From NCBI GenBank assembly GCA_902775025.1, contig CACYKP010000019.1:1-58428 (forward strand): a stretch of DNA of 58,428 nt, written 5' to 3'. Below the pieces are notes generated by a model that worked only from the letters and a program-made list of their open reading frames with translations, was not told where the DNA came from and made no database searches. Shown one piece after another: positions 3,407-27,815 of this stretch (its first letter is position 1; each line of letters begins with the position of its first letter). Both the position numbers and the translations under genes were made by a program. This DNA is from an uncultured bacterium (lineage in GTDB: Bacteria > Cyanobacteriota > Vampirovibrionia > Gastranaerophilales > Gastranaerophilaceae).

Positions 3407-3616
3407 ATGCCAAAATTAAAAACACACCGTGCGGCAGCTAAAAGATACAAAGTTACCGGCACAGGTAAAATTACAAGAAGACATGCAGGTATCGGACACC
3501 TTCTTCAACACAAATCTGAAGGAAGAAAACGTAAAATCTTTGGAGATATTGCGGTTTCTGAAACTCATGTAGATTTAGTTTCAAAAGAGTTACCTTACAA
3601 GAAGTATGCAAGATAG
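3407..3616 (+). CDS. rpmI: 50S ribosomal protein L35
   Basis: 69 residues, beginning MPKLKTHRAAAKRYKVTGTG, the hallmark L35 start; the basic middle (RRHAGIGHLLQHKS) is also typical. AGAAAGGAG lies 7 bases before ATG 3407; the longer frame from 3344 runs through the upstream hairpin and is not credible. L35 sits in the large subunit. It is followed after 12 bases by rplT. infC, which leads this operon in many Firmicutes and Proteobacteria, is not directly upstream. Confidence 0.95.
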   Translation: MPKLKTHRAAAKRYKVTGTGKITRRHAGIGHLLQHKSEGRKRKIFGDIAVSETHVDLVSKELPYKKYAR

Positions 3617-4066: not shown

Positions 4067-4483
4067 TTACATGTCATAAACAAAGTTTTGACCGGCTTCA
4101 TTTGTTGAAGCCTCTTTTGCAAGTGCCATGTTTGTATAAAACATCTGTTTTGCATCAGCTTGAATTGCATTCGTAAACATATTTTCTGTATAATATATTT
4201 CATTTTCTTCAAGCCATTGTAAAAACGGATCAATTGCTCCCATTAATGTATTTACTGCAACATCTTGAAATTCTTGCAATACGCGTTCTGGAACCATTAT
4301 ATCTTTAATCTTTTCAGAAAGTGTTAATGATAAAAAGCTGCCTTGTGCGTCAATTGCTTTTTGAGCATTTTGAAGTTCTCTTTGCTCCATAGCAGCTTTA
4401 CCGTTTTCGCCTGATGTATATTTGCGATTAACGTAATCATTTTGTGCATTTAATACATTCTTTAAATTGAACGCTTCTGCCAT
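4067..4483 (-). CDS. Unknown protein with a sigma-28 promoter
   Basis: 138 residues starting MAEAFNLKNVLNAQNDYVNRKY. I chose ATG 4483 because GGGA lies about 9 bases upstream; the longer frame from 4522 runs through the promoter. There is no signal peptide or membrane segment; it is acidic and Gln/Asn-rich, likely helical. No family recognised. The upstream TAAAGTTT-N11-GCCGATAT is a textbook FliA/SigD promoter, as at the unrelated gene 6043-6411, so I infer that both belong to a sigma-28-type regulon. Confidence 0.75.
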   Translation of the reverse strand: MAEAFNLKNVLNAQNDYVNRKYTSGENGKAAMEQRELQNAQKAIDAQGSFLSLTLSEKIKDIMVPERVLQEFQDVAVNTLMGAIDPFLQWLEENEIYYTENMFTNAIQADAKQMFYTNMALAKEASTNEAGQNFVYDM

Positions 4484-4512
4484 TTGTTTGATCCCTTTGC
4501 TTTGTACTATAT

Positions 4513-25100: not shown

Positions 25101-25225
25101 GTTGAGTTCTCCTTCTTTTTCTACCTTGAGGTAATAACCTCATACATGGTAAAAATACAACAAACAGGGGTAAATGTAAAGTTGAAGAAATGGAAAATGG
25201 AAAATGGAAAATAAATTTTTATCCA

Positions 25226-25291
25226 CTCCGGTTGGAGAGGGTGCAGTTGTGTTTGAGAACGTGAGTTCGAAAACTACAAATGCAGGTGAGG
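25226..25291 (+). repeat. Modular GGTGAGG repeat, arm type C
   Basis: CTCCGGTTGGAGAGGG, arm TTT-GA-GAAC-GTGA-GTTC-GA-AAA, then GGTGAGG. Faces the element at 25351 across 59 AT-rich bases. Interval 25101-25578 holds no gene, only these repeats and two REP hairpins. Confidence 0.7.
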
Positions 25292-25350
25292 ATTGAACCT
25301 ACATTAAACTAATTTAACAAATTTATTTTCAAAATTTTTCAAAAATTAAA

Positions 25351-25423
25351 CCTCACCCGAAATTCTAACTTTCGAAACACAGTTTCTCAAGTTGAATTCC
25401 TACCCTCTCCAGTTGGAGAGGGT
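25351..25423 (-). repeat. Modular GGTGAGG repeat, arm type B
   Basis: Read on the minus strand: CTCTCC palindrome, arm CTT-GA-GAAAC-TGT-GTTTC-GA-AAG inside a GAATT / AATTTC stem, then CGGGTGAGGT. Nearly identical to the copies at 26653 and 27127. Confidence 0.75.
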
Positions 25424-25444
25424 AATTAGTTTGATATTAAGCAA

Positions 25445-26199: not shown

Positions 26200-26520
26200 A
26201 TGGGTATAAAAAAAGAACTAGGAAAAAAAATTAAACAACTTAGAATTGAAAGAGGATACACTCAAGAAAAGCTATCTGAATTAGCTGATATTTCTCAACG
26301 GGCACTTAGCAGCATAGAGATAGGCGAAAATTTTGTAACTTCTGAAACTCTTGATAAGCTTCTTGCTGCACTTGATATTACTGCAGAAGACTTGTTTTCA
26401 ACCAACGATGTAAAAGAACCTGCTGAACTTTTAAAGATGATTAATCAAAATCTTGCATCAATAGGAGATGATGCACAAAAGTTAGAGATCATTTACAACC
26501 TGACAAAAAGCCTAAAATAA
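26200..26520 (+). CDS. XRE-family HTH regulator
   Basis: 106 residues. HTH at residues ~8-62 (LGKKIKQLRIERGYTQEKLSELADISQRALSSIEIGENF ... LLAALDITAEDLF), typical of Cro/C1 proteins. The C-terminal ~35 residues are helical and could dimerise. No partner toxin adjacent. Target unknown. Confidence 0.85.
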   Translation: MGIKKELGKKIKQLRIERGYTQEKLSELADISQRALSSIEIGENFVTSETLDKLLAALDITAEDLFSTNDVKEPAELLKMINQNLASIGDDAQKLEIIYNLTKSLK

Positions 26521-26530
26521 AAACAATCCT

Positions 26531-26596
26531 TTCCCTCTCAAGATGGAGAGGAAAACAGCCGTAGGAACGTCAGTGACATACGGATGTAGGTGAGGT
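26531..26596 (+). repeat. Modular GGTGAGG repeat, arm type A
   Basis: CCCTCTCAAGATGGAGAGG, arm CCGTAGGAACGTC-AGT-GACATACGG, GGTGAGGT. Directly follows the HTH gene stop and faces the element at 26653 across 56 AT-rich bases. Confidence 0.7.
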
Positions 26597-26652
26597 ACAA
26601 ACCCTGATGTAAGTAAATTAACAATTTTTGTATAATAGTTTTTATTAATTAA

Positions 26653-26725
26653 ACCTCACCCGAAATTCTAACTTTCGAAACACAGTTTCTCAAGTTGAAT
26701 TTCTACCCTCTCCAACCGGAGAGGG
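26653..26725 (-). repeat. Modular GGTGAGG repeat, arm type B
   Basis: Same sequence as 25351 apart from the palindrome, which it shares (26706-26725) with the next element so that the two form one ~125-bp palindromic unit. Confidence 0.75.
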
Positions 26726-26777
26726 TGAAGTTGTGTTTGAGAACGTAAGTTCGAAAACTACAAATGCGGGTGAGGTT
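26706..26777 (+). repeat. Modular GGTGAGG repeat, arm type C, left boundary of the DUF559 gene
   Basis: Arm GTTT-GA-GAAC-GTAA-GTTC-GA-AAAC and CGGGTGAGGTT end. The stop codon of the minus-strand DUF559 gene overlaps the last base of this element. Confidence 0.75.
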
Positions 26778-27121
26778 CAATCTGCGTCCAGATTTTTTCT
26801 TATAACTTCAAATACACCTTCTATATTGTTATCAATATCATTGTTCCAAAATCTTATTACTTTATATCCTTTTGATTTTAAAAACTCTGTTCTTTCTTTA
26901 TCGTACTTTATATTATTCGGTTCATTATGCTGACCGCCATCTAATTCTATTATCAACCTTTTTTCTCTACAAATAAAATCAACAATATAATTCCCTATTG
27001 GATATTGCCTGCGAAACTTATAGTTTTTATACTGACGATTTCTTAACAATGTCCATAGCATTATTTCTTGTGGGGTTGAATTTTGTCTCAGTTCTCTTGC
27101 TTTACTATATTTTTCATTCAT
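26777..27121 (-). CDS. DUF559 endonuclease-like protein inside a repeat pair
   Basis: 114 residues, complete DUF559 (Vsr-like, PD-(D/E)xK nuclease fold): LRQNSTPQEIMLWTLLRNRQ, KFRRQYPIGNYIVDFICREKRLIIELDGGQH, KSKGYKVIRFWNNDI. The IVDF...IIELDGGQH stretch holds the likely catalytic Asp, Glu and His. The ORF fills the space between two inward-facing repeats: its ribosome-binding site GGTGAGGT is one repeat end and its stop codon touches the other. I infer a mobile cassette or a homing-type gene. Confidence 0.88.
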   Translation of the reverse strand: MNEKYSKARELRQNSTPQEIMLWTLLRNRQYKNYKFRRQYPIGNYIVDFICREKRLIIELDGGQHNEPNNIKYDKERTEFLKSKGYKVIRFWNNDIDNNIEGVFEVIRKNLDAD

Positions 27122-27126
27122 TGTTA

Positions 27127-27200
27127 AACCTCACCCGAAATTCTAACTTTCGAAACAAAGTTTCTCAAGTTGAATTTCTACCCTCTCCAATTGGAGAGGG
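27127..27200 (-). repeat. Modular GGTGAGG repeat, arm type B, right boundary of the DUF559 gene
   Basis: Third near-identical type B copy, with palindrome CCCTCTCCAATTGGAGAGGG. Its GGGTGAGGTT end lies 6 bases before the DUF559 ATG. Confidence 0.78.
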
Positions 27201-27216
27201 TTTGTTATATTTACCC

Positions 27217-27651
27217 CTATTTTGCTCGGTATTCAAGAACGATTTGAGCTTTTACGCTGTCTTTTTTATATGATAGAGGTAATGGTTGATAAGGGGCTCC
27301 TGATTTTACGGCATTCAAAACAGACGTGTTTGCATTAGGGTAATTTGTTCCGATTATTTGTAAATCAGATATTGAGCCATTTCGATGAACTGTGAACTGC
27401 ACTGTTACTTCATAGTTTACATTAGCTTTATAAGGTGTCCAATGTCTGTGAACCTCAGCAGGAAGATAACGAAAATATTCGGTTAAATTTTTTATCTCTC
27501 TCATCTCAGGCTGAGCAGCCTGCTCTGTTTTTTTATTGTTCAAAACCTTATTTCCAAAAGGATCCGCATCGGTATTTTTTGGAACATAATCAAACGCAAA
27601 TGCCATCAAGCCAAAACATAATACAGTTAATAATATTAAAGTCTTTTTCAT
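27217..27651 (-). CDS. TonB C-terminal domain protein with signal peptide
   Basis: 144 residues. N-terminal signal-like segment (KTLILLTVLCFGLMAFAFD), then a ~45-residue linker and a TonB-like C-terminal domain (TPYKANVNYEVTVQFTVHRNGSISDLQIIGTNYPNANTSVLNAVKSGAPYQPLP). Unlike true TonB it has no long proline-rich spacer, so it may act in the periplasm rather than span it. No exbBD nearby. Confidence 0.82.
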   Translation of the reverse strand: MKKTLILLTVLCFGLMAFAFDYVPKNTDADPFGNKVLNNKKTEQAAQPEMREIKNLTEYFRYLPAEVHRHWTPYKANVNYEVTVQFTVHRNGSISDLQIIGTNYPNANTSVLNAVKSGAPYQPLPLSYKKDSVKAQIVLEYRAK

Positions 27652-27691: not shown

Positions 27692-27707
27692 ATTCTTTTT
27701 AATTTTT

Positions 27708-27728
27708 GTCAGGTAAAACCTGACCTAC
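27708..27728 (-). repeat. REP-like GTAG hairpin
   Basis: Minus strand GTAG then GTCAGGT / ACCTGAC stem. Identical to the copy at 50074. Confidence 0.65.
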
Positions 27729-27815
27729 AAATTTTATTTTGTTGTTATAGCAACCCCAAGCTGCAATTATTTTTTATTTATAAATAATTTTCCATTTTCC
27801 ATTTTCAATTTTCCA

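Follow-up and report, generated by a model that had tools for sequence, protein, structure and literature searches.

When a nuclease gene fits exactly between two copies of a dispersed repeat, does the enzyme act on the repeats, serve the host by repairing them, or simply ride between them? The DUF559 locus considered here raises this question, and a preliminary description made from its sequence had read it as an autonomous cassette beside empty ones, a possible homing or REP-like element carried by a Vsr-fold nuclease. The core of that description is well supported by the anatomy of the locus and by its recurrence, and its wider reading holds in part; the kinship of the repeats with the BoxC/PIT/TM family, the spread of the pairing through bacteria and its occurrence in frame inside genes go beyond it. 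With somewhat better than even confidence, we favor an autonomous element in which the DUF559 nuclease acts on its own repeats, with solo and paired TM repeats as the non-autonomous members.

A DUF559 gene fits exactly between two inward-facing repeats

The window is the whole stretch of DNA that was analysed, 58,428 nt long, and forms contig C19 of a 2.29-Mb genome of Gastranaerophilales type. Within it, the DUF559 gene fits exactly between two inward-facing repeats of 72-80 nt each (Table 1), and its stop codon touches the left repeat as had been described: TGA occupies 26777-26779 and the downstream arm (ACCTCACC) begins directly after it. Arms in the window are built from a palindrome (CCCTCTCC-loop-GGAGAGGG), a second hairpin of ~45 nt and an inward-facing GGGTGAGG tail. 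In the upstream arm, GGTGAGG at 27129-27135 (minus strand) lies 7 nt before the DUF559 ATG, which positions the tail (GGTGAGGT) as the ribosome-binding site of the gene. That the right repeat can supply this signal is correct for the window copy, and does not extend to a general rule, as the tail takes this role in 10/34 intergenic relatives; an extended -10 promoter (TGnTAnAAT) stands directly before the ATG in 20/34, so that signals for expression come with the unit.

The window contains 11 copies of GGTGAGG where 1.27 are expected, a roughly ninefold excess that none of 100 shuffles reached. The two small inward-facing pairs noted earlier are present, and their payloads, given before as 56-59 bases, are exactly 59 nt (tails at 25285/25351) and 58 nt (tails at 26589/26654). 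The palindrome at 26706-26725 is common to the left arm of DUF559 and the right arm of the neighboring empty pair, and the overall order is cassette, pair, HTH gene, EF-hand gene, pair.

Table 1 Features of the cassette region and of associated short repeats (window coordinates unless another locus is named).
Feature	Position	Strand	Details	Basis
DUF559 nuclease gene	26777..27121	-	114 aa	ORF list and PF04480
Upstream arm	27124..27201	-		repeat family D1, genome-wide copies, hairpin covariation
Upstream arm palindrome	27181-27200		CCCTCTCCAATTGGAGAGGG; second hairpin next	
Upstream arm tail	27129-27136		GGGTGAGG; can act as ribosome-binding site	
Downstream arm	26705..26776	+		inverted pairs I5/I6, direct family D5, GGTGAGG scan
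Downstream arm palindrome	26706-26725		CCCTCTCCAACCGGAGAGGG; hairpin next	
Downstream arm tail	26769-26775	+	GGTGAGG; touches DUF559 stop codon	
Empty inward-facing pair	26529..26726	.	58-nt payload, 26596-26653	sequence, GGTGAGG scan, repeats
Second empty inward-facing pair	25219..25425	.	59-nt payload, 25292-25350	
HTH gene	26200..26520	+	Cro/C1-type	Pfam; G007 locus
TonB-like gene	27217..27651	-	adjoins alr; edge of occupied site	orthologues in relatives
Short dispersed repeat	27703-27735; L007 ~1600; L013 ~1430; L016 ~1465; L020 ~1630		TTTGTCAGG-N5-CCTGACCTAC	
Intergenic motif	~27204-27216; L010; L016; L022		GGGGTAAATAT (TATATTTACCCCT in the window)	

Other repeats lie in the same region. 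A second dispersed repeat, AATGGAAAATGGAAAATGGAAAAT, and its inverse (25188-25217 and 27782-27811, 90% complementary) stand inverted around the cassette region. The short repeat TTTGTCAGG-N5-CCTGACCTAC often occurs close to TM-like repeats in the genome of the window, and the motif GGGGTAAATAT recurs in its intergenic regions, often near repeats.

The enzyme has a predicted Vsr-like fold

The window protein belongs to the Pfam family PF04480 (E=3.2e-42; 143.3 bits against a gathering cut-off of 20.6) and matches the sequence of structure 3hrl with E=3e-23. Its AF2 model (pLDDT 89.8) resembles NGO0050 (Z 15.4), the homing nuclease I-Bth0305I (Z 12.3; Foldseek E 1e-5; rmsd 2.5 over 93 residues) and Vsr (Z 11.0; rmsd 1.8 over 99 residues of 1cw0), which places it in the PD-(D/E)xK Vsr-like fold and, at the level of a predicted structure, upholds the earlier assignment. 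The predicted active-site residues E19, D48, E59, D61 and H65 are invariant in 80 diverse loci, so the predicted activity appears to be under selection; one copy in the genus has V at position 48. An ordinary transposase or a RAYT as the linked enzyme was considered and rejected, the payload matching in Pfam only DUF559 and a related nuclease model.

Proteins of the same Pfam family or fold include VsrA of Caulobacter and YcjD of Escherichia coli. VsrA elicits a DNA-damage response in vivo in cells without the methyltransferase ScmA and is read as a mismatch-repair nuclease (PMC12907096), and YcjD has been assigned to PD-(D/E)xK by profile comparison (PMC1189080). A link to flanking repeats or to mobility was not found in the parts of the two papers that were consulted, nor was a cutting assay of any DUF559 protein on these repeats found in the literature searched.

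The repeats are variants of the BoxC/PIT/TM family

Knowledge of BoxC/PIT/TM repeats goes back to the 1990s; their triplexes are stable in vitro, and the genome regions that they mark are unstable. BoxC, the PIT element and TM are names of one intrastrand-triplex repeat, of which E. coli MG1655 has 23 copies. In E. coli it is described as intergenic, with five inverted pairs reported; it is numerous in Neisseria and Microcystis and occurs in >260 bacteria, its origin was called unclear, and no mobility function was reported nearby (Holder et al. 2015, PMC4666352). Judged from their sequence, the window repeats appear to be variants of this family, with which they share a C-rich hairpin followed by a putative G-rich third strand (GGGTGAGG) and a dispersed distribution as single copies or inverted pairs. 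They depart from the E. coli consensus CCCTCNCCCN3-6GGGNGAGGGN3GGGNGAGGG in having CCCTCTCCAATTGGAGAGGG and, between stem and tail, a second hairpin that puts ~45 nt before GGGTGAGG where the consensus has 3 nt; because of this extra hairpin we class them as a variant and not as strict TM, whereas a second cassette of the same genome, on contig C11, comes close to the consensus. The families differ further in their associations: no linked mobility gene has been described for BoxC/PIT/TM, and the window-type repeats are tied to DUF559 and also lie in frame in genes.

The second hairpin itself is borne out by covariation. Across 11 arm variants, 93% of cells pair and 11/15 pairs show changes on both sides, a level reached by 0/500 shuffles, and sliding the pairing partner abolishes the signal, from which we conclude that this hairpin is real. 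The hairpin and G-rich third-strand layout is present in the window arms, with triplex formation itself putative.

In E. coli K-12, the DUF559 gene ycjD sits between sapF and fabI, and a degenerate TM repeat touches its 3' end, on that one side only. The repeat listed as TM_ECO no. 9 in the published table (PMC4666352) is letter for letter the one farther downstream of ycjD, before fabI. A 56-nt query around this repeat hits a median of 19 places per E. coli genome, and the presence of ycjD varies in the species, with 3332/5426 genomes covering at least 80% of the ycjD query. A simple empty allele for ycjD was looked for and set aside: the three ycjD-less strains inspected have an efflux locus beside sapF.

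Repeats and DUF559 recur together from genus to phylum and beyond

The source genome holds three DUF559 genes, each bracketed by its own repeat variety, namely the window type (C19), CCCTCTCCTTTTGAGGAGAGGGTTGGGGTGAGG (C11) and a CCCTCCC type in direct order (C18). One 79-nt window arm has 33 blastn matches in this genome. Its palindromes of this general type number 36, and a relaxed pattern (0-8 nt before the tail) picks out 31 TM-like motifs; set against three DUF559 genes, these numbers mean that most repeat copies are gene-less.

DUF559 is patchy in the genus, being found in 40/58 genomes with 0-4 copies each (39 without a weak match in G030). A search of the clade for DUF559 genes lacking such repeats, as the preliminary description had proposed, left its reading standing: among genus copies with enough flank, 28/35 have inverted arms above the 99% control and 34/35 have inverted or direct arms, and the corresponding counts at other loci of the genus and family are 40/45 and 43/45.

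Repeat number is tightly linked to DUF559. Genomes of the genus with DUF559 have a median of 18 palindromes vs 4 in those without (p=5e-4; Spearman 0.59), and among 386 genomes of the phylum, TM-like repeats occur in 122/157 with DUF559 vs 45/229 without (odds ratio 14, Fisher p=1e-30). Since each DUF559 gene brings its own flanks, we subtracted two repeats per copy, which left p=2.5e-10 in the family of the window and 1.3e-4 elsewhere; all these p values are too small, because species are not phylogenetically independent, and the effect is seen at all three levels, genus, family and remaining phylum. Some genomes have many TM repeats and no strong DUF559 match (G363 with 44 and G066 with 27).

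The association reaches well beyond the phylum. A cross-phylum scan, in which each species was represented by a single genome, gave 80 loci. These are the nearest relatives of the query and span Proteobacteria, Chloroflexi, Bacteroidota, Nitrospirota, candidate phyla and others. Inverted flanks score no lower than the 99th percentile of the 846 control pairs in 63/78 of them, a count that leaves out L223 (an N-run artefact) and L247 (too little flank). The arms share a common grammar across phyla, a C-rich hairpin with GGGTGAGG or GGGTGGGG facing the gene, and the best match of the left arm among the 78 right arms is that of its own locus in 31/78 cases where about one is expected, indicating that arms and gene travel together. 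DUF559 proteins more distant than these 80 loci may not follow the flanking rule; inverted scores are weak or absent at the DUF559 loci of Neisseria, Synechocystis and Klebsiella.

Such arms are also seen in 4/6 of the best six viral contigs. On a 7652-nt contig of the source genome (C78 of G000, L033), several window-type repeats at 1845-1959, 3476-3533 and 4243-4501 sit between short genes that, judged by eye, have a phage-structural look, which suggests that a prophage or phage-like contig carries the repeats; the 2015 study reported no association of TM repeats with phages (PMC4666352). On a plasmid of Synechocystis sp. B12 (L303), a DUF559 frame with CCTCACC...CTCTCC arms lies just upstream of BREX pglX and is apparently inserted in pglX, the frames being annotated as separate proteins.

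The presence of TM copies and of DUF559 genes with TM flanks on phage-like and viral contigs is among the points that would fit a role in defence or addiction, in which DUF559 restricts DNA carrying foreign repeat varieties or makes repeat loss costly, its flanking repeats serving as self-recognition or regulatory sites. Restriction enzymes are found among the related PD-(D/E)xK folds, and VsrA harms cells without ScmA (PMC12907096). DUF559 stands alone between its arms, with no partner methyltransferase or antitoxin in the cassette, and we regard this role as very improbable.

DUF559 also lies in frame inside host genes

Among the copies studied, 21 carry the DUF559 domain within the reading frame of a host protein. 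Hosts in the genus, named from their sequences, are HydF, PrmA, MurD, a helicase, a radical-SAM protein and an epimerase; at the other loci, named in the same way, they are PriA, IspE, HydF, PrmA and a peptidase-like protein. Only inserts that keep the frame are expected to survive in coding regions, and accordingly translation of the arms yields linkers, among them PPLEGGSKSLISGWG and TLPQGEG. In a helicase gene (L079, genome G020), the in-frame DUF559 is followed by an arm-derived linker that has itself undergone in-frame duplication (CVQAESNLHQACDYSPLVGESKSLISERG...), which implies that arms go on multiplying within the gene.

Most of the 58 genomes have an uninterrupted PrmA, and several carry PrmA inserts of differing length at one site; full, short and no insert are found at one site in both MurD and PrmA. 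The closest pair compared for insertion or loss was MurD of G018 and G058, which are near-identical and differ by a 495-bp in-frame deletion between 6-bp CCGGAG repeats. We therefore rejected nuclease excision or insertion as the source of this difference, which is a loss by deletion between these repeats. At MurD (L161, L163), a TTCACTATTCACTACTCACTATTCACT repeat codes for the host residues that follow the insert, its translation being DSLFTTHYSLI; the same repeat is found in a nuclease-less relative (L130), a different in-frame repeat at the same MurD spot.

These positions bear on whether DUF559 could be a caretaker, that is, a Vsr-like host nuclease for repair or resolution, acting on lesions or stalled forks that arise from triplex-forming repeats. 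Repeat-rich genomes would then need DUF559, accounting for the co-occurrence, and recombination hot spots would account for its place between arms. The Vsr fold suits such a role, as do the mismatch-repair interpretation of VsrA (PMC12907096) and the instability of TM loci in E. coli (PMC4666352). Yet nothing in a caretaker's role calls for a place between inverted repeats of its own variety, for in-frame insertion in essential genes at scattered sites, or for 3-8 divergent copies per genome, each with matched arms, so that we consider this explanation unlikely.

Occupied, empty and unoccupied states of the site

Orthologous sites without the cassette, a further check proposed at the outset, were found in several relatives. 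G007 shows the tonB-HTH-EF-hand order of the window and has no repeats or DUF559; in G017 and G005, fba comes next after tonB, again without repeats or DUF559 at this site; and G023 has one empty inverted pair between tonB and fba. The cassette is therefore not present everywhere. Occupied and unoccupied alleles coexist at the window site, as for a homing gene, and likewise at the PrmA and MurD sites. The outer flanks of the G023 pair match the outermost arms of the window, and the second empty pair of the window is homologous to this single G023 pair.

That the HTH and EF-hand genes are cargo was rejected as the simplest view, since they stand in the same order in G007, where repeats are absent; the HTH gene is a pre-existing neighbor of the tonB-like gene, and a cargo role for it is not evident. 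A clean target-site duplication or a fresh insertion was not seen in genomes compared at one per species; at the window site, inverted arms are present, and the flanks of the unoccupied orthologues are too diverged for target-site-duplication comparison.

Recombination between direct arm copies, which are 80-88% identical, can connect the window state with that of G023, and recombination between repeats could also have produced the window state. Such interconversion, the MurD loss by deletion and the empty pairs without a gene are what one would look for if DUF559 were a passenger, with replication slippage or an unlinked enzyme spreading the TM repeats and the gene a cargo caught between them and moved by repeat recombination. 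A passenger would have no call to be a predicted nuclease with invariant catalytic residues; nor would one expect arms adjoining the gene with single-base precision, a single gene family recurring between such arms in many phyla, or a repeat number that tracks DUF559, and we find this account rather unlikely.

Discussion

Under the favored reading of an autonomous element, the nuclease would recognize its own repeats by their structure of hairpin and G-tail, probably while replication leaves one strand exposed at the fork, and would nick or break DNA there; repair using another copy as template would then spread the unit. Solo repeats and empty inverted pairs would be either non-autonomous copies or vacant sites able to gain or lose the gene. 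In this proposal, DUF559 would cut the repeats, cutting would drive copying, and the unit would be selfish, not a servant of the host.

The earlier comparison with homing and REP-like elements captures the layout and the site states, and fails on the enzyme and its setting. As in REPIN/REP-RAYT systems, short palindromic repeats occur as inverted pairs and solo copies around a single nuclease gene; unlike RAYT (TnpA-REP), an HUH (Y1) nuclease, DUF559 has a predicted PD-(D/E)xK Vsr fold, and the window repeat is a predicted triplex motif and not a REP. The homing endonuclease I-Bth0305I (EDxHD family) is among the closest characterized folds, and in both cases occupied and unoccupied alleles coexist; the DUF559 cassette differs in being without intron or intein and in having its gene bracketed by multicopy repeats, and cleavage of the unoccupied allele by DUF559 is putative. 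With an enzyme that is not HUH and with no intron or intein, the unit falls outside both systems. Rickettsia palindromic elements likewise consist of palindromic repeats inserted in frame and translated inside conserved genes. To our knowledge, these elements carry no gene, whereas relatives of the window DUF559 place an entire nuclease domain in the frame of a host gene; the copy in the window lies between genes and so is not an in-frame insertion of the Rickettsia type.

The repeats and DUF559 were both already known, and the link between them appears new as far as the literature searched goes: a paper linking BoxC/PIT/TM repeats to DUF559 was not found there, preprints and most subscription papers lying outside that search. 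There is a real chance that the DUF559-repeat unit is a separate class. The broadest form of the proposal is a new class of bacterial mobile element, in which a Vsr-fold nuclease copies itself together with triplex-forming repeats across many phyla and persists in frame inside essential genes, the BoxC repeats of E. coli being gene-less copies and YcjD the matching, possibly relict, enzyme; to us its chances look evenly balanced.

DUF559 is a large family whose function is unassigned, with members in E. coli (YcjD) and Neisseria (structure 3hrl), and linking TM repeats to it gives both a testable role. DUF559 is the best candidate so far for the mover of the long-unexplained BoxC repeats, and it supplies a definite enzyme with which to examine an older puzzle, the entry of palindromic repeats into reading frames that leaves the gene alive.
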